From NCBI GenBank assembly GCA_021234155.1, contig JAJEKV010000051.1, positions 3,593,370-3,657,369 of the forward strand: a stretch of DNA of 64,000 nucleotides, read 5' to 3'. Position numbers and translations under genes: made by a program. Every line of letters starts with the position of its first letter. Position 1 is the stretch's first letter. Below the pieces are notes generated by a model. That model was not told the origin of the DNA. It was given only the letters and a program-made list of their open reading frames with translations, and searched no databases. This document shows, one piece after another, positions 24,155-62,215 of this stretch. This stretch comes from Isoetes taiwanensis. Taxonomy: Eukaryota > Streptophyta > Lycopodiopsida > Isoetales > Isoetaceae.

Positions 24155-25626
24155 GTCCCTTCCGAATCGCATCGATCAAGGCCCTCGGATAGCCATTGAG
24201 TAGGGACGAGCCATTATCGATGCATTCCACATTCAAGACCCGATTCTCAGCGTCTTCTCACGGTAGCACTTCCTCCATTCTCATTTACTTCCCCCCTTCA
24301 TACCTTTGTTGGGCAGCCCGCGTCTCCCTTTTCACATGTGTTTTTTGTTCACGCACTCTTTTGTTTCCACCTCGAATTGTTGTTCACAATAATGTTTTTT
24401 TTCTTTTATCTCATTATGCGCATTATTCTCCACTGCGGGAGATCTTTATTTTATTTCCACCTTGGGGTGGCCGCACATTTTTGTTTTTCGCCAATTACGT
24501 TTTTCCACCGCGTTGGGTGGCCTTTTTTCCACCCTATGGGTGATGCTATCTTCTTTTTGCTATTTGTTTTTTCATATGTCCTCATCACTCACATCATTGG
24601 ATGATTTTTTGTTGTCTGACTTGCAGCGTCAACGCCATGCATGATTTGATTCCTTTAACCATTCACGGGTGCTTTTTGGTGTTCTGTTTTTGCTTGCGGG
24701 TTTCGCCATCATGGGGTTCCTTCCATTTTGGGTTTGCCCTTGACCCTCTCCTTAGATTCTCGGGCAACACATTCAAGATTGTTGTGACCATTTCTCATTA
24801 GGGTTTTCCTCGAAAACCGAGAACAGTGTTTTTATCAGATGAGAAGTTGTAGCCATTATCATCTATGCTACACGTGCACATTTTAGTTTTTTCACGGGAT
24901 AGCCCGATATTGTTCCTATGGTGGCTCCCCCTCTCTATTTTTCAAACATTGTATATTGCGGTGATGAATGACAAATATACAATGTTTGAAAAAAATAGAA
25001 GCGGCTCCCGCCTTTAATATCGGCCCCAGCATCTATAAAATATTGCCGAATGAAAATATAGAAAGGTAATAGCGTGGCTTCTCATCGAGATAAACCAGCC
25101 GCTTCCGAGGTTTTGGCTGAAAATGATAGCCAACAACCTGAAATGTTGCTGAAAATAGAAACGGTGGCGAGCAAAATGAAGAAACACGGCGCTGGCTAAA
25201 CGGTGCCAGCTGCAGTGAATAGTTAAAGGAATCAAACGTACATGAGTGATAACAGGCTGTGCAACAAGCATCAATGATATTATTGACTAAAGGGCTAACA
25301 ACGCACCCAGCAGAGATGAAACAAGTCGCCGGTGGCGGCATTTGAAAATAAAATACTCGAAGGTGAAATGCGCTGGCATCACCCGCGGTGGGCGATATCG
25401 CGACAATAACGACAAAAATGAAAACGTGCTGCGAGGTGGCACAACTAAAAGAGTCAGTCCATGGCGAAGAACGCGGCGAAAAGAAGCTGGAATGGAGGAA
25501 GTTATACTATGAAGACACTTAGATAGCGGTCCCGAATGTGGAATGCGTGTATAATGTAATAGCTCGTCCCTACCCGGAATGGCGATCGAGGGCTTTCCCG
25601 GATGTCTGCGATTACAGGAAGGGACT
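24155..25626. mobile_element. Foldback-like element: inverted repeat of about 1.47 kb
   Basis: The left end (24155 onward) and the reverse complement of the right end (25626 backward) align. Both have GTCCCTTCC, then GCCCTCG, GTAGGGACGAGC, GCATTCCACATTC and ACTTCCTCCATTC, in order. Matching continues inward with GATTCCTTTAAC.ATTCAC, GCAACA..TTCA and TTTTTCAAACATTGTATATT. The arms meet at a hairpin centred near 24965 (24940-24998). Nearly the whole element is therefore two diverged arms of 650-790 bp. No transposase frame is seen. One arm of the same family recurs at 48021-48371. No convincing target duplication is visible. Confidence 0.8.
24940..24998. repeat. Central hairpin of the foldback element
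   Basis: TTTTTCAAACATTGTATATT on the left is mirrored by AATATACAATGTTTGAAAAA on the right, with a loop of about 18 bases. This is the tip of the larger inverted repeat. Confidence 0.9.
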
Positions 25627-31610: not shown

Positions 31611-32882
31611 CTACAAGTGAGTCTTCATCATCATCTTTTTGGCCACCTTTTTGGCTTGTTTGTCTAATCCACATGCCAGAGCCTTATTAAAGTTTGAGTG
31701 ACCATCGTAACTTATTAGCGGCGGTCGAACAAAGTCATATGCAAGAACCTTTACTTGATTAGATCTATGGCAGCGATTGCTTGCTTTGGACTTAGCTCTC
31801 TTTCCCACTCTGTTTTTACCATCTCAAAGTATAACTCCCCTTTGAAAGCATTGGCGACAATCGTTCTCATCGATTGCACTTTTAATTGGTGGGAATTCCA
31901 TCTTCTCTTATTTACCTCGATTACTTTAGCTAGCCAAAATGGCCTCCCGGTTCATCATTATCATTTGGGAACAGCTATGAGCATTCCTTTTACGAATCTC
32001 GAGGCGAGAACCGGATACTCGAGCAACTTGTTGTCTTTGTGCGTCAGGGGCGGTGTACATGACTCTGTCATCTTCATCGAGCTAGCCAATATCTCTACAT
32101 GTTCCTCTTGATTCTCAACTTGCCGGGGAGAGTTTGCCTAGATGGCGAGTTGAATATGGCGGTCTTGACCTTGTAATGAAGCTTGCAACATGTCACGTTA
32201 GAGAAAAAATTGAGGCCACCATAAAGCATCTGCCTCCCCAAAGTGGTTAGGCGGGACTGAATACTTGTCTCAATATAATCCAATGATTTGTTTGAGTCAA
32301 ATGCTCTTCCCTCCTTTTTACTCTTTGTGATTTCTTTCAAGCTTTTTAGAGGCATTTGCTCTGCGAGAGAGAGCATGGAACTAGTATTGGGGATGGATGC
32401 GAATGAATTGAATATACCTTTGGCTGCTTACTTTGCAAAAGGATGTGGCATACTTCTTTCCTTGTAAGATGGCCTTGCCATCTACAAAGTGAAATTTTGA
32501 TCGATCTTTGCTGAAATGTAATGTTTCTCAAGGGCTCAATAGCACAGTGACCCAGTTGATCTCTCCGAAAAATCCATTCTTTGAAATCATAAGTTTCTTC
32601 CAATAACTCGATGTCTGGACGAGGATTGTAGAAATCTTGGATAACCTCAATCATTGCTGGTAGGCTGAGAGCTTTTTTTCGAGCAAGACGTTTAGAGAAC
32701 CTACTGAACATCTGATCAATTTGATCGTGTGTGTGACCAACAAGCAGGAAACCAATCTTCACCTTCTTGAAGATTTGTTTCTCTACTAGCATAGCACAGT
32801 AAGCAAACAACGCCTGATTCTTATTTTCCCTTGTCGTGTTGTCTAGCTGAAGATCTCCCACCAAAAAAAAGACTAGAACCAC
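31611..32882 (-). pseudogene. DUF7869-like protein (DDE-type fold suspected), C-terminal part, frameshifted
   Basis: The main frame (32882 to 32346) starts within a conserved domain: LQLDN (residues 11-15), then RENKNQALFAYCAMLVE (18-34), IFKKVKIGFLLVGHTHDQID (37-56) and MFSRFSKRL. I know the pattern LQLDN..RENKN....VGHTHEDIDQMFSR from large protein families now called DUF7869, common in invertebrates and seed-free plants. Its spaced Asp/His/Asp residues suggest an RNase-H/DDE-type nuclease or transposase origin, which is inference. A frameshift near 32370 leads into frame 32376-32095, and further minus-strand frames to about 31611 continue with protein-like text (for example GKLRIKRNM and ELYFEMVKTEWERELSPKQA). 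The N-terminal half is absent: the frame upstream of 32882 closes within about 50 bases, where the divergent methyltransferase gene begins. Confidence 0.65.
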
Positions 32883-33712
32883 AAAGGCATTGACTATAGA
32901 GGAGTCAGCAGAAGCTCTTCAGAAGGCTCCGGGTGCAGATATTGTTGTGAAGCCCGTTGACAAGTCAAGTGCTATTCTAAAAAAGGTTAATGACACTAAA
33001 CTGCTTAAGCAAACAATTTCCTTGACATTAAGAGGCCGCCTAAAAATGAAGATGGGGTCAGAGTTCTTCAGGTACGAAAGCTGTACGCGGCACATGTGGC
33101 TATACTCAAGCAAAGAATGAGAAGGAATCCTCATGCCCATGTGTCGCCACTTGTTGTAATGGTTGGCGAAGTCGGTGCAACCAACTAAAAGATTATAAAA
33201 AGGCTAACTTTGAGGATTACACATATATTTTGTACTTGGAGGCACACATAGTTACAAAGCAAGGAAGGAACTTTCAAAGAAGAATCCGTACTTGAAGTTT
33301 GGAAGGCGTGAAGCACATATCTACGTTGGAGTCCGCAGACGAGGAAGCAAAGGTCATTCCGTGAGTCATAATCTCGACAATGACTTGAGACTAAAAATGA
33401 GTCTTATAGACAAGATCCGCTTCATGCAGGGAATACGTAGAGTTCAAGCAAGTGCATGGGGAGGACTTCAAAAACAAAAGAACAAGCTCCAAGAACCCGA
33501 GGAAGCTTGTGTCACAATCTTTGCCTCATTTCACGATTAGGATAAAAGCCCATAATGGTACGTGAAGCGGTACGACAATTACTTCGGCTTGCTTTCGGGA
33601 GATGGTCAAGTAAGTAAAAGCTTTAATTTGGTTATCTGTAGTATTCTTAGCATAGGCTGAGTTTGTATATTAACATCGAACTTTGTAAATCGTACCAAGG
33701 AAGACCGACCAC

Positions 33713-33932
33713 GGTATAAATTTATACCGTCGGTCCGCGATATAAATTTATCGTGATCGGACTACGGTATGGTATAAATTTATCACCGATCACCGAACGC
33801 GGTATAAATTTATCACGTGCACGGTCCGCAGATATAAAGTCATCACCGTTGCGGACGCGGTATAAAGTCATGGATTACCGGGAGCCGCGGTATAAATTTA
33901 TCACCGTGCACGGTCTGATATAAATTTATCTG
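33713..33932. repeat. Cluster of eight TATAAATTTATA-type palindromes (presumed intron)
   Basis: Copies start at 33713, 33740, 33771, 33801, 33831, 33859, 33889 and 33915, every 25-32 bases. The core is GGTATAAATTTATC or the full palindrome GGTATAAATTTATACC; two copies have TATAAAGTCAT instead. Between them lie GC-rich linkers with ACCG, CGGT and GTGCACGG. The cluster follows the donor at 33609. Confidence 0.95.
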
Positions 33933-35024
33933 TGCACGGTATTCCGATGTGCAATAATATAGTAACCTTGAGTAACCAGCGGCATTAGCGCCATTCAAAA
34001 CTAAAATACTTGTGTTCGATCGTCAGCGGTGTGGGATCTTCAAGAAAGAATATTTTTGTATGTTCGAAGATGGTGAAATTTGAAAAGAACAATCTAGCTC
34101 TATCGGAAAAAAACAAAAAAAAAGGTGGTGAGGCAAAACAAAAAACATGAGCATTGTACCACGGGCCTTGACTCTACGGGGTTTGAAAAACAAAGAAATT
34201 TTTGTAAGACTTCTAGAAAAAGTTGTGGCCAAAAGAATTTACTCTCTGCGTGAAATGGCCAAAAGAAGCTAAGGCGTAAGCCACCCTTTTATGTTGTGTT
34301 CTTTTTTTCTTAATTTTATCGATCCACAATTTTCCCTCTGCGATCGGAAAGACATTGTCACTGCCCGCGGAGAATTAATGAAACAACTTAACACGGAGAT
34401 TTGGGAGGAGTGCAAGACTTTATATCAACCTCTACTACGGATACTATTATCGAGAGAAACCTTGTTGTTAACCCGATTATTTGGGTAAGTTGTCTGAGAA
34501 AATACTTTTTGTTTTAGTGCCTTTGTCTCTGATTTTTTCTTGAGAATAAGAAGAAAAGGCCTACCAAGCGGGATTTTTAAACACTGGTTCGTAGGGCCAA
34601 GGAGGGAAGCGGTAGAAAGCAATTGAGCAAGGAAAGGCGGTCGACACTAGCGGCTTTGACACTACTTACGAGAGATTTACTACATTTGGTGGGGCGTCCG
34701 GTCTGGGGTTGTTGAGTTGCTGCCTGCGGTGGGGACTCTTTTAGACAAACAAAGCTTTCACGTTATGCATTGCGGATATTCCTTATGGCTTCAAAATCAA
34801 GGATAGCACTTTTTGGCGAGGCTTTTACTCACGTGCAAGTCCGTTCTTTTTTGGATGGCCTAAAAGAAGTCCGCGACATCGAAAGCGGAGGGTCATCATT
34901 TTTCATTCCGACTGGGGCGATGTCGGGTGCTAAAGCCATTGGGAGGCTATGCATGCATATAGCGGGCCCAGCTAGCGTATGGTAAGCTTTGAATTTCTTG
35001 CTTTTCTATTTACTTTAACACCAC

Positions 35025-35100
35025 GGTATAAATTTATACCTCTGCTGACCTCGTGGTATAAATTTATCTGACAAAAGGCAATGGTGGTATAAATTTATCG
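35025..35100. repeat. Second cluster of TATAAATTTATA palindromes (three copies)
   Basis: Copies lie at 35025-35040 (perfect 16-base palindrome), 35055-35070 and 35086-35100. They follow a donor-like GTATG|GTAAGC at 34981, so they would sit in a short intron between methyltransferase motifs IV and I. Confidence 0.95.
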
Positions 35101-35838
35101 CCCAGCCACACCATAACTAACTTATTTTGTTCGTTTTCTTTACGCCAATGTTTAATTGCTTTTTTGTTTGGCGGGCTAAAAACAAATGTCAAAGGACATG
35201 GTGGTGGTCAGCGCTTAGTAAAATTTGCTTTGAACATTTCCATATTGGTTTTCTGGTAGCGGACACCAAAAAACCATGGTTCATTTCAACCACCTTGAGA
35301 ATGAAAAAGACTCCACCACTAGCGCTTTTCGGTTTCAGTTTGTTCTACAAAAATTGAGAGACCCACAGCGACAAGGGTATCGTATCTCATTATCGAAGCC
35401 CCAGTGGCTAATTAATAATTTAATTGATGGTTTTCGCCCGATTTGGATTCTAGATGCATTTTCGGGCTCGGGCACCCACGGCGGTTTGCGCCCTTAAGCA
35501 AAAAGGCGCAATGTTATCTCCGTCGACATACCCCGGGACAAAATAAGTTTCATCGGGGCGAGGATAAGCTCTTGTGAATCCTTTCACGATGAAAGCAGCC
35601 AGGAGCAAAAAGCGGTCTTTGGCGATGTGAAAGGCACATATCTGAAATCCGGCCTCCACTTACGGGAAGAAGAGATGAGGAGGTGGAGTTTGTCGATCTG
35701 GAACTGTGGTGCACGAGGCGAGAATCGGCGTACTGTACCATTGGAATCGGAAGGGGCGTCTACGCTATTATAACCTCGCCAAAAAGCCGGATCCTAAGGG
35801 GCACGAGAGTCACGTGAATTTGGGAAGAGCCACCTCTC

Positions 35839-35855
35839 GTATAAATTTATCTGAG
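35839..35855. repeat. Solitary TATAAATTTATC copy after the methyltransferase gene
   Basis: CGTATAAATTTATCTGAG has the same core as the two clusters. It lies 66 bases after the last open frame of the methyltransferase region. Confidence 0.85.
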
Positions 35856-36839
35856 ACCGGTATTTTAAATTAACTTTCATTGTAATCTATGTGCTAAGAA
35901 TTTTTATATATATTTTGATGAAGGTTTTCAAGCTGAAAACTTTGTCTCTTTAACAATGCTTAATTAGAACAATTCTTTTTTTTTGATTTATGATTTCACA
36001 CTCTTTCTCTTTTTCTATGTTTGATTTTCTTAGTACTTATATTAAGCTTGCAAAAAAAGACAAACTATATTTCCTTCTATTTTCAACAACAAATACTTAA
36101 TGAGTTTTTAAATTTAATGTCTCTCCTCAAAGCAAGCTTTCTTTTTTTTTTTTTTTTTAAAATGAAAAGGCTTCAAAAATGTTGCTTTTTGGGGTATTTT
36201 TGAATGCTATTTGCTCAACATTCTATTTTGCTCCCTATTTTGTCCATTTTTTTCAAGTTTCCAATTTTTAGAAAGGAATCTTTCAAACGCACTTCTTAAA
36301 TAAGTGCGTTTCATTTTAAACTCTGTTCTTTTAAACCACGTTTGCCGGACATTCTGAGGGGGCCGACATTATTCACTTTGGTCCTCTTAAGCTGTGGAAA
36401 ACAAGCAAGAATGAGACAAAGAAAAAAAAAACCTAAAATGCTGGAAACAATTATATAAATGAAAGTGAAACGAACTTTGATCATCCCATCAATCCCTTTT
36501 CTTTTGTTCGCTATGTGCACCAGCAATCTCTCTTTTATAAAAACACAGATAACCTATGTCAAAACAGTCTGATAAACCTCATGGTTGGAATCTATTCAAC
36601 TATGTTGCTAAAATTCCTCCCTTACTTGCCCAACGTTGGCAGCCTTAAGATATATTGCCGGGAATAAGAAAGTGGGGAGTAACTTGTGGCATGTACCTGT
36701 GATCCTGCTTCCTGAATGTTAAAGCATCATTCACGGTGGCAATTCAAGAAATGCATCCACTACTTACATGGCAAAAATAAAGGTATCTTTGTTCCATCTC
36801 CCGCCTACTACTTCCAATGTATCATCGATTTTCGCCAAA
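35856..36839. other. AT-rich spacer between methyltransferase and PPR genes
   Basis: T-rich runs (36140-36160) and A-runs (36421-36430), no recognisable gene. The part from about 36560 to 36839 would be the 3' flank of the minus-strand PPR gene. Confidence 0.45.
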
Positions 36840-48020: not shown

Positions 48021-48371
48021 TGAATAGGAGCTCCTACAAGACTGGAATCGAGATGATGAATGAGGAAGAGAATCTGGCATATGATTGCAAAAAAAAGCGG
48101 ATAAAGGCTAGCAAGAAAAGCATCGTTAGTAGCAGGAAAGGCATCGTTAGTAGCAGGAAAAAAATTTGAATCGAGAAAAGGGCTGCATGAAAGGTATGGA
48201 AAGAAACGAGAGAAGCAATAACGGTTTGGAAAGGAAGGGTGGGAAGCAATGAGAATGGAGGAAGTGCTGCTGTGAGAAGATGCCGATAACCGGTCCCGAA
48301 TGTGGAATGCACTTATATAATGGCTCGTCCCTACCCAGAATGGCGATCCGAGGGCTCGGATCAATGCGATT
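48021..48371 (-). mobile_element. One arm of the foldback family seen at 24.2-25.6 kb
   Basis: Read on the minus strand from 48371, the sequence matches the left arm at 24170 onward: GCCCTCGGATCGCCATT, GTAGGGACGAGCCATTAT, GCATTCCACATTC, TCTTCTCAC and AGCACTTCCTCCATTCTCAT in order. Matching fades near 48130, where a 21-base unit is duplicated (48117-48160). The opposite arm is missing, so this is a half-element. Confidence 0.75.
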
Positions 48372-49121
48372 TTGAAATATGAAATACGGGAGTTCGATCC
48401 TCTACCAAAATAACCTTTATACGTCTTTGGCTAAGATTTTAGAATATGAAATACGGGGGTTCGATCCTCTACCAAAATAACTCAATGTCCTAATAAGACT
48501 ACTTTAACCAATGTACCCAGTGAGCTAATGTGATTATTTTTTATCTTGAATCTATGTTTTTTTTTATGACAACCTATTCAATTGTTTTAGGGATATATAG
48601 TCTATGGTTTCAGGAATTGTTCTTTTTACATCCATATCAAATCCCCTTGGAGCCCCCTGTTATTTTTCTACATATTCTAAACGAGGTGCACCCTGACTAC
48701 CACAATCATCGGATTCGTCGATCTTACGACCCAGATCGTATGTTGGGGCTCTGGGCACCTCTCGTTCGCTTATAGTTATTTATGATTGGAGGCGCCTATG
48801 ATTTTGAAATATGAAATACGATTTTGTCTAAGGTTTTGAGGAGATATCCAACCTCTATACGTCTTTGGCTAAGATTTTTAGAATATGAAATATGAAGGTT
48901 CGATCCTCTACCAAAATAACTCAATGTTCTAATAAAACTACTTTAACCAATGTACCCAGTGAGCTAATGTGATTATTTTTTATCTTGAACTATGTTTTTT
49001 TTTTTTTTTATAACAACCTATTCAATTGTTTTAGGGATATATAGTCTATGGTTTTAGGAATTGTTCTTTTTACATCCATATCAAATCCCCTTAGAACCCC
49101 CTGTTATTTTTCTACATATTC
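48371..49121. repeat. Tandem segmental duplication, about 310 bp, period about 433
   Basis: 48371-48682 and 48802-49121 share long identical stretches. These include GTTCGATCCTCTACCAAAAT, CAATGTACCCAGTGAGCTAA and GGGATATATAGTCTATGG. The first copy also holds the 22-base phrase with GTTCGATCC twice. The intervening 120 bases (48683-48801) are present once. Confidence 0.9.
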
Positions 49122-49125
49122 ACAG

Positions 49126-49506
49126 ACAAACCATTACATCCAACACTTTAAAATTAAATCCCCCTTGAAACCCCCTTTGGTTTGGGTGCATATTCACACG
49201 GGGGGTGACTTCGGGCATTGAGAGCCGTTGGATAGGCATATTCACCCTTTATTTCTTAATCTACACCGTACGTAAAGTTCCTCGTTTGTGGGGTATGCAT
49301 GTACAAAATTTGCTATACTATATAACAAGTTTTGCAAAATACTATAAGATTTTTGGTAATATACTACATGGTGTTGATTTTGTACATATGAACATAATTT
49401 TAGGGGCTCTCGCTGCCCTACGTCACCCCCCGTGTGAATATGCACCCAAACCAAAGGGGGTTTCAAGGGGGGATTTAATTTTAAAGTGTTGGATGTAATG
49501 GTTTGT
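49126..49506. mobile_element. 381-bp element with about 84-bp terminal inverted repeats
   Basis: The left arm (49126-49209), from ACAAACCATTACATCCAACA to CACACGGGGGGTGAC, is mirrored by the right arm (49423-49506) with hardly any mismatch. The inner 210 bases hold a short frame without known motif. Long TIRs without coding capacity fit a MITE or Mutator-like derivative. No 8-10 base target duplication is evident. Confidence 0.85.
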
Positions 49507-50994: not shown

Positions 50995-51513
50995 TGTTAG
51001 TCCTGTGCCTCACAGTGCAGGACTATTCATCATCTGACGGACCAAGTCAAGTCAAGGATCCCTGACCCGACGCGGTCGGTCGTCAAAGGCCCGACAAAGA
51101 CCAAGCGGCGGACCACGTAGTCAAAGCCCAAGGCGGCTTCGGACAAGTAACGACCCGTCACACTTGCCAGCGTCGGCGTGATTCGAGCACTTCAAGAACG
51201 CCCGGCGTTCACCGCAAATCGAGAATCGGACAGAAATCGGTCGAGGAGTGTCTATATTGGGCCAAAGGCCATTGTACTATATATATGAGTAGAGCTAGCG
51301 CTCTAGTTTTTAGATGAGTTTTGAGTCTTGTCTCACATTGGTTTTCTCTCGATTGCGAGAGCTCATGTATCTTCATTGACATCAAGGAAGTTATTCTAAT
51401 TATTGTGATCTCAGTGTTCTCTTTTTGTCCCGTTCTCTTTTCCTTGTTCTTTTCTTGCAAATCCCGCGTGACACAGCTACCGGATCCTCCTGTTTGATCC
51501 ACGGGTCCTCACA
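50995..51513 (+). repeat. Gypsy LTR 1 (about 519 bp)
   Basis: Begins TGTTAGTCCTGTGCCTCACA and ends near CACGGGTCCTCACA. The same text with small indels recurs at 55793. A TATA box and the shared pyrimidine-rich 3' part are preserved. The exact right border is uncertain, because the sequence that follows is also similar in both copies. Confidence 0.85.
51278..51288 (+). promoter_or_regulatory. TATA box of gypsy LTR 1
   Basis: CTATATATATGAG lies in the middle of the LTR and is conserved in LTR 2 (56100-56110). It is the likely promoter of the element transcript. Confidence 0.65.
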
Positions 51514-51689
51514 GAGGGCTGTCTTGCAGGAGTTCGAACCGGACCCCAAACAACATGTCGCCCGTTCGGGTCTGATTCAAATTTCCTTTGATACATAGCC
51601 GCCATGCGCCGCGAAACTTCACTCGGAAGAACTTCTTTCCCGGGCGGCGTCTGCGGCAGGCGCCACCAGCGGCCGGGAAGTTGTTCGCG

Positions 51690-53470
51690 ACATGTATGGA
51701 TCTGCTTATGACATTGAGGGAGGCCACATTCGGTCTAGGGCTCAGTCGGCGCCACCCATCCCTCGTGTCCTGTCTCGTCCCAGTTCCCCGCCTCAAGCGT
51801 GCAAACATTGCTCACAGCCTCAGTCACCTCATCACTATCAGAAGCTCTATCAGGCTCCGCCTTCTCAACCTTACTTTCATACCCCAGAGCATGCCTACAT
51901 CCATCATTCTTCTGGCCATACACCTCTGCCTTCACAACCATCATCTCCTCCGGGCGGACAAGGATATCCACATGTCTCTTTTGCTCCTCCCCAGGAATTT
52001 CCATTCCCTACATTTCCAACCGCAACCTTACCGACCTCAAAACCAATGATCAGGCACCTCCAGTACCTCCCCCTCAGGCACCCCTTCATCAGGGTCTTTC
52101 AGGCACCATGCCACCTCCCACTCCGCCTCAATATAATCCTTATCCAATTCCTGTACAACCAAGCACTTTCACCTCTACCTTTCAGACCCTTAAGGTGACT
52201 TATCAACCTTTGGCAACCACGAAGGCAAACCTTTAGACCAAAGTGCTCGGGCCCACATGGAAGAATTTGAGGCTCTGGCTGCCTGAATGGTCATGCACAA
52301 CCTCAACTGAAATTTCACATCTTTTCCACCACCTTTGCATGGCTCTCCTCATCAATGGCTCATGTCCAACAAAAGCCACTTTGGAAACAAGATTGGTCGA
52401 GGAAATGGCTGCTTTTCTTTCTCACTATGGAACCCACGGATGATGATCAACTTCATCTCAAGCAACTCAATGACCTTCAACAAGAGCCCACAGTCCGCCG
52501 GGGATTTTTTGAGACCGACTTCACATCTTGCTTTCGGCAAACTAAAGGAGTACCGAGCCGCAGGCGGATCTTGGTGCGGTTTCTCCAAGGACTTCCTCGG
52601 CTATCAGACTCATGGTGAATACTGGCCCGAAGACTTTGGGCGGGCTATCGACCTGTCAATCACTTTCGGTCAATGTTTCCTCCGTGGCGTGGCTCTTGGG
52701 GCTCCCTTTCATTCCACCGGTCATGGTTCCCGCAGGCTGGCTGTACAACCTCAACACACCAATCAGCGGTAGCGGTCGGATGCGGTGCCATATCGTAAAT
52801 ACCAAGGCCACTTGGCAAATGAGTGCAACTCCACCAGCGGCCCACCTCATTGTAAGCGATGCAACATGTGCAATCATGCCGCGGAAGAGTGCACTTTCGC
52901 ACTCACCCTACACCTTTCCCAACAAGATGGTTTATCAAGTGCAAACCACACCTCGGCAACAATCGACATATCGGCCGCAACAAGCTGCGGGCTCAACCCC
53001 ACTCAACCCTATCGGCAACCTCGGCAACAGCGGGGACCAAGCACTTTCGCCCCCTTTTTATCCTTCTAAAGCTCGGTGTTATCGCGTCGAGAATGGGGTC
53101 ATACCACCACCGCGGCATGTCCTTAACTTCCCACAAGTTCGGTGCGGCTTCACGGCACCAATCGGACCACATCGGTCCGCCTCACGACTTACCAACTACG
53201 GATTGCCAATGGCAAACAAGGCCAGCGTCCGGTTCCGGAAACCACCCGCGTGCCTCGGCAATCACGCTATCAACCAGCTCCTGCCAATCAACCTCGGATG
53301 GATCAACAAAACACGGAAAAAATTTTTCGGGCTCTTAATCCTCGATCACGGCCGATCAAATTGGGTTGGTTTGGTTTCCGCGCCCGGACCGGGGCGTCCG
53401 CCCCTTGACCATTATTCCTCATAGCCGCAACCTGCTTTTGCGGTCGACCACGATCCCTCATGAAGAGGAA
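51690..53470 (+). pseudogene. Gypsy gag, copy 1, with CCHC zinc knuckle
   Basis: Frame 51692-52198 is rich in Pro, Ser, His and Gln (HHYQKLYQAPPSQPYFHTPE), a disordered N-terminal arm. Downstream frames carry the capsid-like part around 52240-52700 in pieces. At 52851-52892 a perfect CX2CX4HX4C knuckle reads CKRCNMCNHAAEEC. A preceding knuckle keeps only HLANEC and has lost its first two cysteines. The protein would coat element RNA in particles. At least five frameshifts are evident by comparison with copy 2, and the breaks differ between the copies. Confidence 0.8.
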
Positions 53471-53859
53471 AAAAGGTGCACTTGACTTGGAGAAACTCAT
53501 GCCTCATGTCATGCCTAAAAATGCGCCAAAGCATTACGAACCTCATGCAAGGCTGCTTTGAAGGCCACCCGTTTGGCTAATGTCCATGCCACCACCCGAG
53601 CTCAAGCGGCGTCAAGGCGCACCCTCCATCTCAACCTCCGCGGCTCTCGGACATATCCGAATATTCTTTGCGGAGGTGGAGCTCCTCAAAAAGTTCTTTG
53701 CTTCATTACCACGCCTCCGGCTCCGTGGATCGGCCAGATCCCTTTTCTCATGTGCCTCACGGAACTCCAAGGAGGGCTGGCAAAAATCAAAATTCCTTTA
53801 AGTTTGGCAACAATTTTGAAGCGTGTCCTGCTCTCAGGACCGGTTACCACTCAAACAGT

Positions 53860-54060
53860 TTTGGTTGGGGCCGTCGCTACCTCTACACCCGCGGTACATG
53901 CCACGGTGGGCAATCAACAAGTCAATCATGTTCAAATTGGCGGAGGTAAGCGGTATCAATCTCATCGGATAAACTCCAAGCAAATGGGCATCAAACAACT
54001 CTATGGTGCCCCATATGACATCAAATTGGTTAATGGCCATATCACCACGACCTCAAGGCG
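53860..54060 (+). pseudogene. Gypsy aspartic protease region, copy 1
   Basis: The frame reads TVGNQQVNHVQIGGGKRYQS where copy 2 reads NHVQIDGGSAVNLIADKL. Copy 1 has therefore lost the active-site aspartate region through small indels. The family protease cleaves the gag-pol precursor. Confidence 0.7.
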
Positions 54061-54849
54061 TCGCGCCTCTTCTTCACATCAACATTGGTGATCTCGATTT
54101 CCCTTAGAATTTGGTGTTTGGAATGTTGGTGGCCGGACCTTTTCTCTCAAACCGGGCCAAAAGTATCCATTCTTGGGCCCGCGGATCAGTTAGTCATCAC
54201 CGATGGTCACCTCAATGCCACTATAGACTTGGAAACCCGGCAAGATCATTTTGATTCGACCATCTTGAACCCTCTCTCTCCGACACCAAGATTACGGGGC
54301 CTTGAATATATCTATCATGTTCGGGGCTCCACTGCGGAGTGCGCCTCTGTCATCCTACCCGAATATCTTTGATCCTTGGGAGAAATGACTCTTGATCAAG
54401 ACCGGGCTGTGGTTGCTTTGCTTGACCCCTACGGCTCCTTGCAATCGCATCCAGCGTGTTGATCACTTTTCGGATCGCGGAACTTCCTCGATCTGTTGAT
54501 GTACCGCGTAATGAAGCAACCTGCAGCGATGACAATCGGCAACCTCTCTTCTTCACCCGCAGAGGCGCCACTCATCTGTCATGCTTCAACCTCCTGCTCA
54601 TATTGTTCAAGACGGAAGTTATCCCACATATTCGGACTCACGAGTAGAGATTGTGGGCGTTGGCAACAATCGGCCCGTCGCATTGCGCCAATCTTCCGAC
54701 ACCCTATCGTAAAAAGGCGATCCGCATTTGTTCAAAAGTTCAAACACATTTTTGCACGGAGCTCTGAGACCGCCGGGGATCAACAAAAACTTGGAGGGAA
54801 CTCACCATTCCTACCAAATCGGATGCGTCGTCTGTTTTTTTAGCGCCCG

Positions 54850-55792
54850 ATGCAGAGCTCAACCCCAATTTACGTGATCAGCGTCAAGGCGAAATTGACA
54901 AACTCCTTGCTGCGGGTTTGATCTATGAGGTCAAACATGCGAATGGGTGAGCCCCATCGTCATTGCTCTCAAACACAATGGTAAGATCGGCGTTTGCGTG
55001 GACTACGAGGAAACTCAATCGGGCCGCGGGCGTGATCATTTTCCACTTCCCTTCACGGACTAGGTTACGGAAAGTCATTTGGACATGAGATGTACTCCTT
55101 CATGGATGGTTTTACGGCTACAATCGGATCTCAATCAAAGAATCTGATCAACTCAAGACTACTTTCACCACCCAGGTGGGGTACTTTTTGCCTACAAGGT
55201 GGTTCCTTTTGGATTATCAAACTCTCCCTCAACGTTTCAGCGCATCATGCTCTCGGTTTTTCATGATTTTATGAAGGAAAATCCCTTCCTACAAATTTTT
55301 CAAGATGACTTCTCGCCTCACGGTTCCATGGCTGACCATTTGGATAAATTGGAACTTCGTCTTTCGAGAAATGTGATGAGTCAGGCATTAGTCTCAATCG
55401 AGAAATGCACCTTCTGCGTCACCTCCGGTGTTGTTAGGACATGTTGTCGACAAAGCGGTATCACCCGCGGATCTGCCAAAATCGGTTATTGTGCTCAAAG
55501 CTCGCGCACCGGCCAATATCAAGGAGACCGCGCTCTTTCTGGGTAAGGTAAATTATTACTCCACCTTCATTTCTGGACTAGCGCCATTGCGGATCCCATC
55601 CATAAACTCGCGGGTGATGAATCCACGGGCTTGGAATTCCGGAATTTGCTTTCAACGGTTGAAGCTTTTGCTTACTTTCGGGCCGGTTCTTGTTCCTTCT
55701 CAATGGGACAAGCCCTTTCATGTACATGTTGATGTGTCGGCGTTTGCTATTGGGCTGTTCTTTCTCAAGAATATGATGCGCTGCCCGACAAA
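54850..55792 (+). pseudogene. Gypsy reverse transcriptase and start of RNase H, copy 1
   Basis: Fragments of the reverse transcriptase run from about 54870 (EIDKLLAAGLIYEVKHA-type text) through a WV.PIVIALKHNGKI region. They continue to frame 55199-55546, which reads VPFGLSNSPSTFQRIMLSVF and LQIFQDDFS. The catalytic box is FQDD at 55298-55309, where plant gypsy elements usually have YxDD or FMDD. The following frame has LLGHVVDK and FLGKVNYYSTFI, the connection to RNase H. It ends at HVHVDVSAFAIGLFFLKNMM, just before the LTR junction. Several frameshifts interrupt it. Confidence 0.9.
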
Positions 55793-56327
55793 TGTTAGTC
55801 TGTGCCTCACAGTACGGGGACTATTCATCATCGTCGGACCAGGTCAAGCTCAAAGATCCTCGATCAACCCGCGGGTCAGACATCAAGCCTCCCGCGAAGA
55901 CTAAGCGGCGAGCCCTTGATCAAAGCCTTTGGCGTCAAAAGCGCCCGCTCGGACAAGTAATGACCCGTCACCGCCAGCGTCGGCGTCGGCGTGATTCTAG
56001 AGCACTTCAAGAGCACCGCCAACATTCACCAAATCAGGCCTCCTTCGAGTCGACGCGAGAATCGGTCGGAGTGTCTATATTGGGCCCAAGGCCATTGTAC
56101 TATATATATGAGTAGAGTTAGCTCATAAGTTTTTAGATGAGTTTTTGAGTCTTGTCTCTTTTCGGTTTTCTCTCTATTGTGAGAGCTCATGTATTTTCAT
56201 CATTGATATCAAGGAAGCTTATCATCTTTCTCTCATTTGTTACGTTTCTCTTCTTTTCCTTCTCTTTTCAGCCAAATCCGGCGTGACATAGTCCCCGGAC
56301 TCTCTGTTAGATCCACGGGTCCTCGGA
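55793..56327 (+). repeat. Gypsy LTR 2 (about 535 bp), shared by copies 1 and 2
   Basis: It begins TGTTAGTCTGTGCCTCACAG and has a TATA box at 56100-56110. It aligns with LTR 1 throughout, with many short indels. It is at once the right end of copy 1 and the left end of copy 2. Confidence 0.87.
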
Positions 56328-56507
56328 GGAGCTGTCTTCGGGAGTTCGAACCCGGACCCCAAACAACGCGCGCTGCGGGTGCGATTTTCTCCTACTTTCT
56401 TACATGCGCCATAATGCGTAAAGTAATTTCCGCCCGAGGAAGAACTCCTTTCTCAGGCGGCATCTGCGGCTTGGGCGCCATCGGCGTCGGAAGCCCTGTT
56501 AGCGACA

Positions 56508-58170
56508 TGTATGGATGCGCTTATGACATAGGGGAGGCCATCTTCGGTCTAGGGCTCGGTCAGCGCCACCCACCCCTCGTGTCGGTCTCGTCCGGTTCCG
56601 CCCCAAAGCGTGCAAACATTGCTCACAACCTCGGTCCCCTCATCACTATCGGGGCCTTATCGGCTCAACCTTCTCAACCGTACTTTCATACCCACGAACA
56701 TGCCTACATCCATCATTCTTGAGGGCCATACGCCTCTTCTTCGCCCAACCATCATCTCCCCAGGGTGGGCATGGCTATCCACATGTCTCCGCTGCGCCTG
56801 CCGGGAATATCCTTTCCCTCGTTTCCCCCTTTGCTCTTCTGTTTACAACCTTACGGATCTCAAAACCAATGCTCGGCTGCCGGTTTCTCACCCGCCCGTC
56901 ACCCCTTCATCGGTCCGTCGGGCACAATGCCAAATCCATCTCAACCTCAATATCCTCACTATCACGTTTCTGTCGGTGACACTTTCACATCTACCTTTCG
57001 GACTTTGAGGCCGACTTATCCCACCTTTGGCAACCACGAAGGCAAGAATTTCGACCAAAGTGCTCAGGCCCACATGGAAGAATTTGAGGCTCTAGCTGTC
57101 CTAAATGGGCGCAGCGCAACCTCAAGCGAAATTTCACATCTTTTCCACCACAACTGCGTGGCTCTCACCGTCAATGGCTCATGTCAACAAAAGCCATTGG
57201 AAACAAGGCTGGTGGAAATGAAATGCGCCTTTGCTTTTTCTCTCTCATTCTGGGACCCCGGATGATGATCAACTTCATCTCAAGCAACTCAATGAACTTC
57301 AACAAGAGCCCGCAGTGCAGGGATTTTTCGCGGATCGACTTTCACGATACGCTAAGCAAGCTCAAAGGGTACCCTACCGAGCCAGTTTTTGGTGCGGTTT
57401 CTCCAAGGACTTCCTCACGCTATTCGACTCATGGTGAATACTGCGTCCAAAAACTTTTGGAGCGGGCTATCGTTCTGTCAATCACTTTCGTCAATGTTTC
57501 CTCGGCGTGGCTCTTCAAGAACTCCGTTCATTCCACCCGTCATGGTTCCACAAGCGGTACATTGACCTCAACAAGCTAATCCCAGTAGCGATCAAATCGG
57601 TGCCATATTTGCAAATATCAAGGCCATTTGGCCAATGGTGCAACTCCACCAATGGCCGCCTCATTGCAGCGATGCAACATGTGCAATCATGCCGCGGAAG
57701 AGTGCACTTTCGCACTCATCCCCCACCGTTCGCCAACAAAATGGTTTATCAGGGTGCAAACCACACCTCGACCACAATGCGCTTTCTCGGTGACCACCTC
57801 TTGGTGCGGCCCGCGCAACTCTATCGACCGCGGGACCAACCACGGGGATCCAACCAGCGTCCTCCTTTTGATCCTTCTAAAGCTCGGTGCTATCAGCTGT
57901 CAGAATGGGGTCATACCACCCGCGGCGTGTCCTCAACTTCCACAAGTTGAGGTCCGCTTCACGGCACAAATCGGACCACATCGGTCCGCCTCACGGCTTA
58001 CCAACTCGGCTTGCTAATGGCAAACAAGGCCGCGACCAGTTCTCAAAGAAGCCCCAAGGCGCCTCGGCAATCCGCGCTATCAACCAGCTCCGACCAAATC
58101 AACCTCGAAATTTGGATCAACAAGCCCAAGAGGAAATTTTTCGGGCACTTAATCCTCCGTCACGGTAGTC
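56508..58170 (+). pseudogene. Gypsy gag, copy 2
   Basis: The Pro/Ser/His-rich N-terminal arm and capsid-like pieces align with copy 1. The zinc knuckle near 57670 reads RCNMCNHAAEEC, with the first cysteine destroyed by a one-base deletion relative to copy 1. The downstream basic, Gln/Pro-rich part is also shifted. It is not a functional gag as written. Confidence 0.78.
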
Positions 58171-58682
58171 AAATTGGGTTGGTCTAGTTTCACGCCCGGA
58201 CCAAGGCATCCGTCCCTTGACTATTATTGGAAGGACCGCCTTTGCGCTTTGCGGTTGACACCCTTCCTCATGAGGGGCGAAAAAAGGTTCACTTTGCACG
58301 ACTTAGAAAAGCTCATGCCAAATGTCATGCCCAAAGTTAGCCAAAGCATTTTGAATCTCATGCAAGGCTGGCGAAGGCCGCACATTGGCAAATGTTCATC
58401 ACCACCACTAGAGCTCAACAAAGACAAGATACACCTTCCACATCTCAACCTCCGCGCTCTCGGACATATCCCAATATTGCGGTAGGGTTGACTTACTCAA
58501 AAAAGTTCTTTGCTTCCACCCCGCGCACTCAGCACCAGTGGAACCGGCCGAGATCCTTTTTCTCATGTACCTCTCGAACTCCAAGAGGAGCTTGCCAAGA
58601 TCAAAATTCCTTTAAGCTTGGCTACCATTTTAAAACTTCGTCACGCTCTCAAGGACCGGTTACCACTCCCAAGCTGTTTTAG

Positions 58683-58913
58683 TTGGGGGTGGCTACCTCT
58701 ACACCCACGGTCCATACAGCGGTGGGAAATCGACAAGTCAACCATGTTCAAATCGATGGAGGTAGTGCGGTCAATCTCATCGCGGATAAACTCCGCCAAA
58801 CAAATGGGCATCACACAACTCTTTCGGTGCCCCATATGACATCAAATTGGCAAATGGCCATATCCACGAGACCTCAAAGGCGTCACACCTATTCTTCACA
58901 TCAACATTGGTGA
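58683..58913 (+). pseudogene. Gypsy aspartic protease, copy 2
   Basis: The frame reads AVGNRQVNHVQIDGGSAVNL. The retroviral-type aspartic protease active site is D-G-G-S (58755-58766), in place of the more common DTG/DSG; the hydrophobic surroundings are typical. A frameshift follows after about 20 residues (IADKLRQTNG). The enzyme would act as a dimer to process the polyprotein. Confidence 0.75.
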
Positions 58914-59699
58914 TCTCTGCTTTCCCATGGAATTTGGAGTTTGGAAAGCTGGCGAAGATCCGGTGACTATGAAATCTTTGGTGGGAAGACCCTTTCTCCG
59001 CCGGGGCAAAAGTATCCACTCTTGGGCCACGGACCCGGTTAGTCATCCACCGAGACGGTCATCTCAATGCCACCATGGACTTGCAAGCGAGGCGGGATCA
59101 TTTACGTTGACAATCACGGAACCCTCTCTCGGACGATTCTGAAGGCGCGGAGAATATTTATCGCGTTGAGGGCTCCCCCTGGCGTGCGCCTCTGTCATCC
59201 TACCCAGAATATCGCGATCTTGGGAGAAATGACTCTTGTCCGGGGACCGGTGTGGCTGCCTTGCTTGACCCTACGGCTCCTTGCAATCGAATCAATCGTA
59301 GATCACTTTTGGGATGACACTTACGCAACTCTGTTGATGTACCGCGCCGTCATGAAGCAACCAGCGCTAGATGACAGCGAGCAACCTCTCTTTTTCACTT
59401 CGCGCGATTACCCGCGCATCGGTTATGCTCAACCTCACGCACACATTGTCAGGGATCTTTTGAAGTCATACCTCATATTCGGACTCGAAGTCGAGAAATG
59501 CGTGGATGTTGGCAACAATCAACTGTCGCCTTAGCTGCGGACCTTCCGGCTCCTTATCGTCCACGGGGCCGTCCATGGCTGTTCAAAAAATTCAAACACA
59601 TTTTCGCTGGAGTTACAAAGATCTTGGGGGGAATCAACAAAAGCTTGGGGGAACTCACCATTCCTACCAAATCGATGCCGCGACCCGGTATAGCAGCGG

Positions 59700-60960
59700 C
59701 GATGCGGGCTCAACCCTAATTACGTGATCGGCGTCAAGGCAGAAATTGACAAACTCCTTGCTGCGGGGTTTGATCTATGAGGTCAAACATTACGAATGGG
59801 TGAGCCCTATCGTCATTGCCCTTAAGCACAATGGTAAGATCGGCGTGCGTGTAGACTATCCGGAAACTCAATGGGGCCCGGGCGTGATCATTTTCCACTT
59901 CCCTTCACGGACCAAGTTACGGAAGAAGTGGTGGACATGAGATGTACTCCTTTATGGATGGTTTCTCGGCTACAATCGGATCTCCATCAAAGAATCTGAT
60001 CAACTCAAGACCACTTTCACCACCAGGTGGGAATCACTTTTTGCCTACAAGGTGGTTCCTTTTGGATTATCAACTCTCCTTCAACATTTCAGCGCATCAT
60101 GCTCGGTTTTTCATGATTTCATGAAGGAAAATCCCTTCTTGCAAATTTTTCAAGATGACTTCTCGCCTCTGTTCCATGGCTGACCATTTGGATAAATTGG
60201 AACTTCGTCTTCGAAATGTGATGAGTCAGGCATTAGTCTCAATCGAGAAATGCACCTTTTGCGTCACCGGTGTTGTTGTTAGGCCATGTTAGCCCAAAGC
60301 GGGAATCACCGCGGATCTGCCAAAATCGGTTGTGTGCTCAAAGCTCAACCACCAGCCAATATCAAAGAGACACGCTCTTTCTGGGAAAGGTCAATTATTA
60401 CTCCACCTTCATACGGGTGGCGACCATTGCGGATCCATTCATAAACTCACGGGTGCGAATCCACGGGCTTGGAATTCCCGGTAATTTGCTCCAACGGTGA
60501 AGCTTTTGCTTACTCGGGCACCGGTTCTTGTTCCTCCTCAATGGGACAAGCCCTTTCCGCGTTCATGTCGATGTCACCGGCGTTTGCTATTGGGCTGTTC
60601 TCTCTCAAGAATATGATCGCGCTGCTTGATAAACCAAATCATTTCGCCCGGTAGAAAACTCAATTCTGGCGGCGCAACTATTACGCCGCGGGCGTGAAGC
60701 TTTGGGTCTCATTTTACGTGTCCAGCGCTTCCGTCATTACCTTTTGGGCAGTCAAATCAAGTTCTTTGTGGACCACCAAGCACTTCTCTATTTGATCAAC
60801 AAATCCCCACGGGCGCATTGCTTTCGTTGGGTCCTTCTTCTCAAATTTGCTCCTTTTGAAATCGTTCATAAAGGCGGGCACATCTCATGTTGTTGGGATT
60901 ATCTTTCCATCCACAGCGATGATCACGCAGCGGGGGTCTCGAGATGCCTTTCGGATGCTC
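59700..60960 (+). pseudogene. Gypsy reverse transcriptase and RNase H, copy 2
   Basis: Fragments match copy 1 along the reverse transcriptase, including YEVKHYEWVSPIVIALKHNG and SFMDGFSATIGS. The FQDD box at 60148-60159 is identical to copy 1. RNase H begins near 60540 (HVDVTGVCYW/SAFAIG region) and continues in frame 60702-61001. There FRHYLLGSQIKFFVDHQALL, YLINK and FEIVHKGGH match the Ty3-type pattern FRHYL.G..F...DH.AL..L...; the DH aspartate is catalytic. Frameshifts occur at least five times. Confidence 0.9.
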
Positions 60961-61025
60961 AACTCTTTTTTAGTCGCGGCAACACCACATTGGTTCCATG
61001 ATTTTCGGCGGTACCCTCCTCACGG

Positions 61026-62215
61026 GTGCTCTTCCACGGAGAGATGAGGCGGCTCTCTCATGCCCAGCGACAATCCGTCGCCATCAATTTCAGAGAGGTC
61101 GTGACTACACCATGGTTTGCGGACATCTCTACAAAAAGGGTAAGGACACCATCCGGTATTTGTGTTCTACCTCATGAAGTTCAGACATTGTTAGAAGCTC
61201 ATCAGGGGCTCGGTGGTGGTCATTTTCATGGTGACACCCGGACGCGCCAAAATTCTCCTTCTTAGGGTATTATTGGCCCACGCTCTTCAAAGATGCTCGC
61301 GCCCGCCCTTGCGTGTGGCGCTTGCCCGGGTGGGGCGCCCGGCGACCCGTGGCGCTCTTCCCTTGGCGCCGGTCGCCGCGCCACTTCCCCCGGCAAATGG
61401 GAATGGACTTTGTGGGACCTATAGACCCTCTGCGCGGCACACTTTCGTGCCCGATACATTCTGGTTCTCGCGACTTCACGCCACCAAATGGGCGGAAGCT
61501 TGTGCACTTCGGGACAACAACTTTGCAAAAGCACGGCCCGAGTCCTCTATCAACACATCATCGCAGCGATTAACGGTGCCCCGCGGGCTGGTCGGTGGCC
61601 GTGGTGTTCATTTCATCAATCATACTATCAAAAGGCGGCCGGATTATCTCTCGATACATCATCACAAGAGCACACCTTACTATCCTCAAGGCAATGGGTT
61701 GGCGAAAGCACCAACAAAACTCGGTCACCATTCTCAAGAAAATTTGTGGCAGCTTCCGCTTGCAGTTGGCGGACAAAACTTCCCTCTTGTTCTTTGGGCC
61801 TACAATACTTGTTTCAAGATTGCTTTCACGGGTCACCTCCTTTTAAATTGGTTTATGGTCGGGGAAGCTCTCATGCCCTTTGAATTCATCCTTCCAACAC
61901 TCCGTTTTCAACTAGCTCTTTGCTCATAATCCACCGGTTGCTCTCAAAGAGCGGGTCTATCAATTAGAAACGGTTGGATGAACTTAGCGGGGATGCTTAT
62001 ATTACGTGTTCTTCATGGACAACGGTTGCAAAAATCTTTACATGATAAGCGTTTGAAGACAAAACATTCAAACAAGGAGATTTGGTTCTTCTTTATGATT
62101 CGGTACAAAAATTTTTCGGGTAAACTCAAGTTTAGTTGGCTTGGCCCTTATCAAATTGTTCAAGTGGTTAGACCAAGTGTTTTTCCAACTTCGCTGAATT
62201 AGGCGGCACTCCATT
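61026..62215 (+). pseudogene. Gypsy integrase, copy 2
   Basis: The H2C2 zinc domain is seen as LPHEVQTLLEAHQGLGGGHF from about 61170, then in other frames a YYWPTLFKDA-like stretch and Cys residues near 61300. The catalytic core begins MGMDFVGPIDP near 61397 and later keeps PYYPQGNGLAK (about 61675), the region with the last catalytic glutamate. The C-terminal part is KFSWLGPYQIVQVV (62130-62170), then an ELGGTPLPTLVNGFRLK-like end. Core and zinc domain are spread over all three frames. Confidence 0.88.

Follow-up and report, generated by a model that had tools for sequence, protein, structure and literature searches.

A decayed beta-class DNA methyltransferase gene with motif arrays in its apparent introns, possibly left by a transposon, in Isoetes taiwanensis

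Can a DNA methyltransferase gene of bacterial type in a plant nuclear genome have belonged to a mobile element that acted on its own DNA? The question is raised by a locus of Isoetes taiwanensis which lies in the middle of the window, the whole stretch of 64,000 nucleotides that was analysed. A sequence-only reading had described it as a ParB-like segment fused to a beta-class (N4/N6) DNA methyltransferase, intron-bearing, frameshifted and possibly part of a mobile or epigenetic system. All peptides quoted in that reading were found near the places given for them, spread across the three plus frames from 32878 to about 35600, and frameshifts and in-frame stops across these frames confirm that the copy is broken. 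The plant nuclear setting fits the PPR repeats at 36.8-38.5 kb of the window, PPR genes being suggestive of a land plant, and the duplicated retrotransposon at 51245-61929. The two copies of this retrotransposon, about 4.8 kb apart, are frameshifted and 75-96% alike in the pieces compared; it gave RNase H matches and a reverse transcriptase (RVT_1) score of 28.8, just under the Pfam cut-off of 29.6.

The pieces of the gene are collected in Table 1. Splicing had been proposed at 33609, 34488 and 34981. GTAAG donors do occur at 33610, 34485 and 34982, but the same five letters are common elsewhere, with 40 occurrences on the plus strand of the window, among them 34204 and 34276, both inside apparent intron 1. 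In the three short stretches examined, candidate AG acceptors preceded by pyrimidine-rich sequence were seen at 34350, 34543 and 35258. Judged by consensus, the stretches that carry the motif arrays described below are apparent introns. The length of the one at 34982-35259 is not a whole number of codons, which is in keeping with the frameshifts.

Table 1. Features of the locus, with positions in the window
Feature	Position	Strand	Basis
DUF7869 (PF25273) fragment	32571..32852	-	Pfam E 1.9e-37, profile positions 63-156 of 192
N-terminal coding-like piece	32878..33020	+	open reading frame only; no Pfam match within read-through
ParB-like piece 1, HVAILK..M..NP..PLVVMV	33024..33185	+	hhalign ParB_N register match, not significant
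ParB-like piece 2, VLGGTHSYKARKEL, other frame	33214..33537	+	non-significant hhalign register; no Pfam ParB
Apparent intron 1	33610..34351	+	GTAAGT donor 33610, AG acceptor candidate 34350-34351; consensus only
Array 1, eight near-palindromic sites	33711..33934	+	core TATAAA(T/G)T(T/C)AT
Array 1 cores	33715, 33741, 33773, 33803, 33833, 33861, 33891, 33919	+	
Middle coding-like piece	34352..34484	+	open frame between acceptor-like and donor-like sites
Motif IV piece	34745..34930	+	DIPYGF at 34775-34792; aligns with DPPY, weak alone
Continuation in another frame, GEAFTHVQVRSFLDGLKEV	34815..34981	+	open frame; assignment inferred from order only
Apparent intron 3	34982..35259	+	GTAAGC donor 34982, AG acceptor candidate 35258-35259; consensus only
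Array 2, three sites	35023..35103	+	cores 35027, 35057, 35088
Motif X and motif I piece, SKPQWLINNLI...LDAFSGSGT	35260..35494	+	profile match 35390-35479; phage tblastn matches
Piece after motif I, NVISVDIPRDKISFIGARI	35498..35580	+	frame of motif X-I piece, behind one in-frame stop
Twelfth motif site	35838..35855	+	3' of last coding-like piece

The methyltransferase claim (METHYLTRANSFERASE) is supported by home-made profile matches, by shuffled and resampled controls and by hhalign. A profile of motifs X to I was made from 11 sequences, eight phage proteins and three PDB chains (L009, a ninth phage protein, was left out for lack of this segment), and run over the six frames of the window with stops read as X. 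Its top match, at 35390-35479, scored 18.4 bits and the next one -0.3, while the best score in 40 windows resampled by a first-order Markov model was 7.9 bits. Because L001 and L002 had been fetched through their match to the window, the profile was rebuilt without them and gave 11.9, the highest control reaching 8.1; leaving out L001-L004 brought the score to 9.1 against 7.8, and with the three PDB sequences only it was 8.8 against 9.5, one of the 40 controls being higher. The place at 35390-35479 was the best match in the window under every leave-out profile.

A full-domain profile of nine phage proteins, a set not fully independent of the window because L011 was found by its DAFSGSGT motif and the other eight via L011 or L002, scored the read-through at 12.3 against 4.9 for the best of 1000 residue shuffles. 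On single frames the motif X-I place was again the best, with 8.3 against 7.8 in the top control. This profile aligns SKPQWLINNLI...LDAFSGSGT with motifs X and I and IADIPYGF with the DPPY of motif IV, in the right order, the latter segment being weak when taken alone (-1.4 bits). The beta-class order of motifs, IV upstream followed by X and then I, had been read correctly from the letters. In hhalign the methyltransferase read-through reached a probability of 87.6 with a pairwise E of 3.5e-6, and a tblastn search of 50,697 phage records returned two matches only, both weak (E 4 and 7). Each covers motif X-I of a protein that has FxGSG and either DPPY or DPPF. In beta-class enzymes motif X (KPxxL) is expected to be followed, about 23-25 residues on, by motif I (FxGSGT); the distance from KP to GSG is 23 residues at the locus and 23-25 in seven of the nine phage proteins, the remaining two having 11 (nearest KP only) and 35. 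The distance from motif IV to KP, about 114 amino acids with the apparent intron 34982-35259 removed, is short since it falls below all nine phage proteins (127-154 in eight of them, 216 in one).

Stock libraries were silent. Pfam gave no relevant family for the separate pieces or for the read-through with X at the breaks, and PF01555 (N6_N4_Mtase) was not matched by either. Single pieces had sub-threshold matches to IL32 (E 0.089), DUF3311 (E 0.2) and Phage_gene29 (E 0.094), and the read-through had none even below threshold. For both domain read-throughs there was no match in NCBIfam and nothing relevant in PHROGs (a single match of unknown function, E 0.34); the PDB sequence search gave chance-level matches only (best E 0.13 and 0.35), and tblastn of the methyltransferase read-through in plasmids gave none. 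While the failure of the stock libraries to return the methyltransferase is an outcome that the sequence-only reading had named as refuting, this half of the reading was rescued by the home-made profiles. We take it to be a real, divergent beta-class N4/N6 enzyme. From its motifs, the putative product of this now broken gene may have methylated DNA amino groups, at N6 of adenine or N4 of cytosine.

The proposed ParB-like N-terminal part did not withstand the sequence tests, and no ParB-like profile match was obtained, an outcome that the sequence-only reading had itself named as refuting. The stretch 33024-33537 falls into the register expected for ParB_N by eye and in hhalign, but with a probability of only 0.2, and a home-made ParB_N profile (seven sequences) gave 1.5 bits, a score equalled or exceeded in 31 of 1000 shuffles; these tests were made with few relatives. 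Neither Pfam nor the profile placed the segment in ParB_N (PF02195). Nothing of ParB was found by Pfam in pieces or read-through or by the PDB sequence search, and tblastn of the ParB read-through in phages gave no match. In view of the weak profile score, the hhalign probability and the lack of a Pfam or PDB match the ParB half is unproven: it is a resemblance with a plausible register match that lacks statistical support.

True fusions of the two domains were encountered in viral contigs. A DNA pattern for DAFSGSGT was found in seven contigs, two of which (L011 and L015, both from IMG/VR) carried a ParB-methyltransferase. L011 has ParB_N (E 8.6e-14) and N6_N4_Mtase (E 1.2e-24) by Pfam and the motif LDAFSGSGT, and L015 is a nearly identical fusion with the same motif. 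The other contigs with this pattern were rejected: L010, L012 and L016 share one unrelated ORF, and L013 and L014 have a common ORF without methyltransferase motifs. Homologues of L011 covering 95-99% were present in Microcystis phage Mel-JY34 and Vibrio phage VS-ABTNL-3. The ParB-methyltransferase homologue of the latter (L019, 271-1647) carries DPIY as motif IV and GAGS as motif I, which shows that variation in both motifs occurs in a phage relative too. The phage fusions resemble the locus in the proposed domain order, in LDAFSGSGT as motif I (L011 and L015) and in a variant motif IV (L019), but unlike the locus their genes are in one frame and, as shown for L011, give clear Pfam matches. 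Searches for related loci by protein patterns produced no pattern match in viral contigs and 14 matching stretches in genome contigs, none of which was confirmed; the same was true of four stretches matching a DUF7869 pattern in viral contigs. A DNA pattern for VLGG(N/T)HS hit one contig, whose ORF appeared unrelated by eye.

On the other strand the 5' end of the methyltransferase gene is abutted by the DUF7869 fragment, which sits in ORF 32346-32918 and breaks off at 32852. Profile positions of DUF7869 before 63 were not found in a six-frame read-through scan of 30-40 kb. Minus-strand ORF pieces at 31614-32137 may, by eye, be the C-terminal part of a DUF7869 gene. The term DUF7869 had no occurrence in the literature searched. 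No transposase family was detected by Pfam in 30-40 and 40-50 kb on both strands, in 20-30 kb on the minus strand and in 54-64 kb on the plus strand, and there was no viral family among the Pfam matches of the scanned stretches. Since no transposase, TIR or target-site duplication was recognised for the locus, any element to which it belonged is one without proven ends.

Two candidate pairs of TIRs were discarded. The inverted repeats 24165-24299 and 48234-48371, considered as TIRs of a 24-kb element, are copies of a dispersed repeat of about 140 bp, because a third copy lies at 25490-25625; a 30-nt inverted pair at 32863-32892 and 35954-35983 (70%, rich in A/T runs) was not accepted. The copies at 24165-24299 and 25490-25625, inverted relative to each other with 1.2 kb between them, could be the two ends of a small inverted-repeat element. 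Farther on, two direct copies of a sequence of about 270 bp (48412-48677 and 48850-49121, 93% alike) precede an imperfect palindrome of 381 bp (75%) at 49126-49506. There was no Rfam match in the window.

What is new here is that arrays of TATAAATTTAT are confined to the locus within the 64-kb window. Neither these arrays in the apparent introns nor the abutting DUF7869 fragment were mentioned in the sequence-only reading. TATAAATTTAT is the most frequent non-simple 11-mer of the window: when 60,331 distinct 11-mers were ranked (strands merged, simple repeats excluded) ATAAATTTATA came out on top, with all of its places within 33715-35850. Exact TATAAATTTAT has 12 matches over both strands, which amount to 10 places, where 0.05 were expected from 100 shuffles. 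When two positions are allowed to vary, as in TATAAA(T/G)T(T/C)AT, there are 12 plus-strand sites and no extra minus-strand place in the 64 kb. Eight of the 12 lie at 33715-33929, three at 35027-35098 and one at 35840; none was seen in the window to the left of 33711, to the right of 35855 or inside the DUF7869 fragment. From GTAAG to the start of the array the distance is about 100 bp for array 1 (GTAAG at 33610) and about 40 bp for array 2 (GTAAG at 34982). Within the arrays the sites are spaced at 26-32 bp, or about 30 bp, by linkers of 50-76% GC.

Written out as GGTATAAATTTATC, the arrayed motif is near-palindromic and makes a putative recognition sequence; two copies read GGTATAAATTTATACC, a perfect palindrome of 16 bp, which in the first of them extends to 20 bp. 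Identity in the core is partly the result of selection and not independent evidence, because the collecting pattern had fixed nine of its 11 positions in advance. Independent evidence is provided by the clustering and by the positions kept outside the core: G at -2 (11 of 12 sites), G at -1 (9 of 12) and C after the core (9 of 12). Farther out, the flanks of the 12 sites show 27-28% identity, which is chance level. The array pattern was also matched by 92 stretches in viral contigs, taken as chance in AT-rich sequence.

Green and red algal cases of ParB-methyltransferases were reportedly treated by Iyer in 2011 and by Petroll in 2025. The eukaryotic combination of ParB and methyltransferase is not new, as it has been reported from algal transposons in a passage of PMC12477816. 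There the element Sola1-1_Ec32 of Ectocarpus (21.5 kb) has a transposase on one strand and, on the other, the gene of a 1104-aa ParB and N4/N6 methyltransferase protein. The authors cite similar proteins from both green and red algae and suggest that these may bind to the transposon that encodes them and modify it. The locus shares with Sola1-1_Ec32, as described in that passage, a eukaryotic N4/N6 methyltransferase, a proposed ParB-like part, a suspected mobile setting and a gene on the opposite strand; it differs in its land-plant-like setting, its unproven ParB part, the lack of an identified transposase and the arrays in apparent introns. No arrays are mentioned for Sola1-1 in the passage, and 'subterminal' and 'binding motif' are absent from the main text of PMC12477816. 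A literature search gave no report of ParB-methyltransferases in land plants among the matches listed, which is weak evidence of absence.

The arrays themselves have a parallel in VANC of the VANDAL elements of Arabidopsis. According to passages of PMC5735166, VANC21 binds YAGTATTAY, and VANDAL21 carries this motif in dense, uniformly oriented arrays in its introns and elsewhere in its non-coding sequence. At the locus, too, the motif is short, dense and in one orientation and is limited to non-coding parts of the locus, as far as the apparent introns are non-coding; the two fully palindromic sites have no orientation. VANC is a TE-encoded epigenetic effector with anti-silencing activity. The likeness is one of arrangement only and not of protein: VANC causes loss of methylation, and no methyltransferase domain is named for it in those passages. 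A bacterial-type amino-methyltransferase in a eukaryote is also known from the Marchantia 4mC methyltransferase and the N4-cytosine methyltransferases of bdelloid rotifers (PMC8885841). These are described in the passages concerned as working host systems, and the term ParB is absent from the main text of that paper.

The explanation that we consider best, and to which we give about half of our confidence, is that the locus holds one dead copy of a methyltransferase gene which was borne by a transposon and contained its own recognition sites. The idea of a mobile or epigenetic element is likely to be right. On this view a DNA transposon of a eukaryote, probably a plant, would have carried the gene as an accessory. 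The product would have been a beta-class DNA amino-methyltransferase, perhaps extended at its N-terminus by a ParB-like part that contacts DNA. While the element was alive, this protein may have recognised the near-palindromic sites arrayed in the introns and at the 3' end of its gene and may then have methylated or otherwise tagged the DNA of the element itself. Such tagging could have set the element apart from host DNA, be it for escape from silencing, for copy control or as a mark for transposition. The analysis itself shows the motif X-I homology, the decay and the confinement of the arrays to this locus in the 64 kb; we infer the functional pairing of methyltransferase and arrays from their position and from the parallels with VANC and Ectocarpus. 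Several findings count against this explanation: the failed ParB tests, the want of a recognised transposase, TIR or target-site duplication, the one control in 40 above the PDB-only match, the distance between motif IV and KP, and the fact that no intact relative was seen among the viral or genome contigs searched.

Repeated short motifs bound by a transposase are common in DNA transposons. It could be argued that the transposon is the same but that its transposase, be it the DUF7869 protein or an unseen one, bound the arrays as subterminal or internal sites, with the methyltransferase as independent cargo. The DUF7869 fragment, on the opposite strand at the 5' end, is placed much as the Ectocarpus transposase is described opposite its methyltransferase gene. 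The arrays, however, occupy the apparent introns and the 3' end of the methyltransferase gene, and neither the DUF7869 fragment nor any part of the window outside 33711-35855 has a site, which makes this account unlikely.

Minisatellites of about 30 bp are common as well, and the arrays might be an unrelated one that grew in the introns of a bacterial-type methyltransferase gene which the host had acquired and then lost. Eukaryotes are known to have N4 methylases that came from bacteria, Marchantia being mentioned in a passage of PMC8885841. Against this stand the flanks of the cores, which are at chance identity, unlike those of a young minisatellite, and the single core shared by two introns and the 3' end. 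We regard such a history as unlikely too.

The viral ParB_N and N6_N4_Mtase fusions with LDAFSGSGT, clear by Pfam in L011 and nearly identical in L015, would be in keeping with a source in a phage-like element or a large DNA virus, a piece of which became endogenised. Given the apparent introns, the lack of any viral Pfam family in the stretches scanned and the failure to find a related viral contig, that origin is very unlikely. Chance resemblance in non-coding DNA, with which the silence of stock Pfam, NCBIfam and PHROGs would agree, is contradicted by the resampled and shuffled controls and by the motif order and hardly deserves consideration.

For the transposon-borne methyltransferase gene a more specific role can be imagined. 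In the lineage of the host, silencing of transposons is usually tied to 5mC. A plant transposon that marks itself in N6A or N4C instead of 5mC, by way of palindromic arrays borne in introns, would be a self/non-self tagging module; this is a tentative and on the whole doubtful proposal. Algal ParB-methyltransferases have been proposed to mark their own transposons, with no target sequence named in the passage of PMC12477816 concerned. Such a target, concrete and testable, is offered by the short motif that is confined to the locus and arrayed in the apparent introns of the gene itself. Were intact copies to act in this way, a transposon would label its own DNA with a mark other than 5mC.
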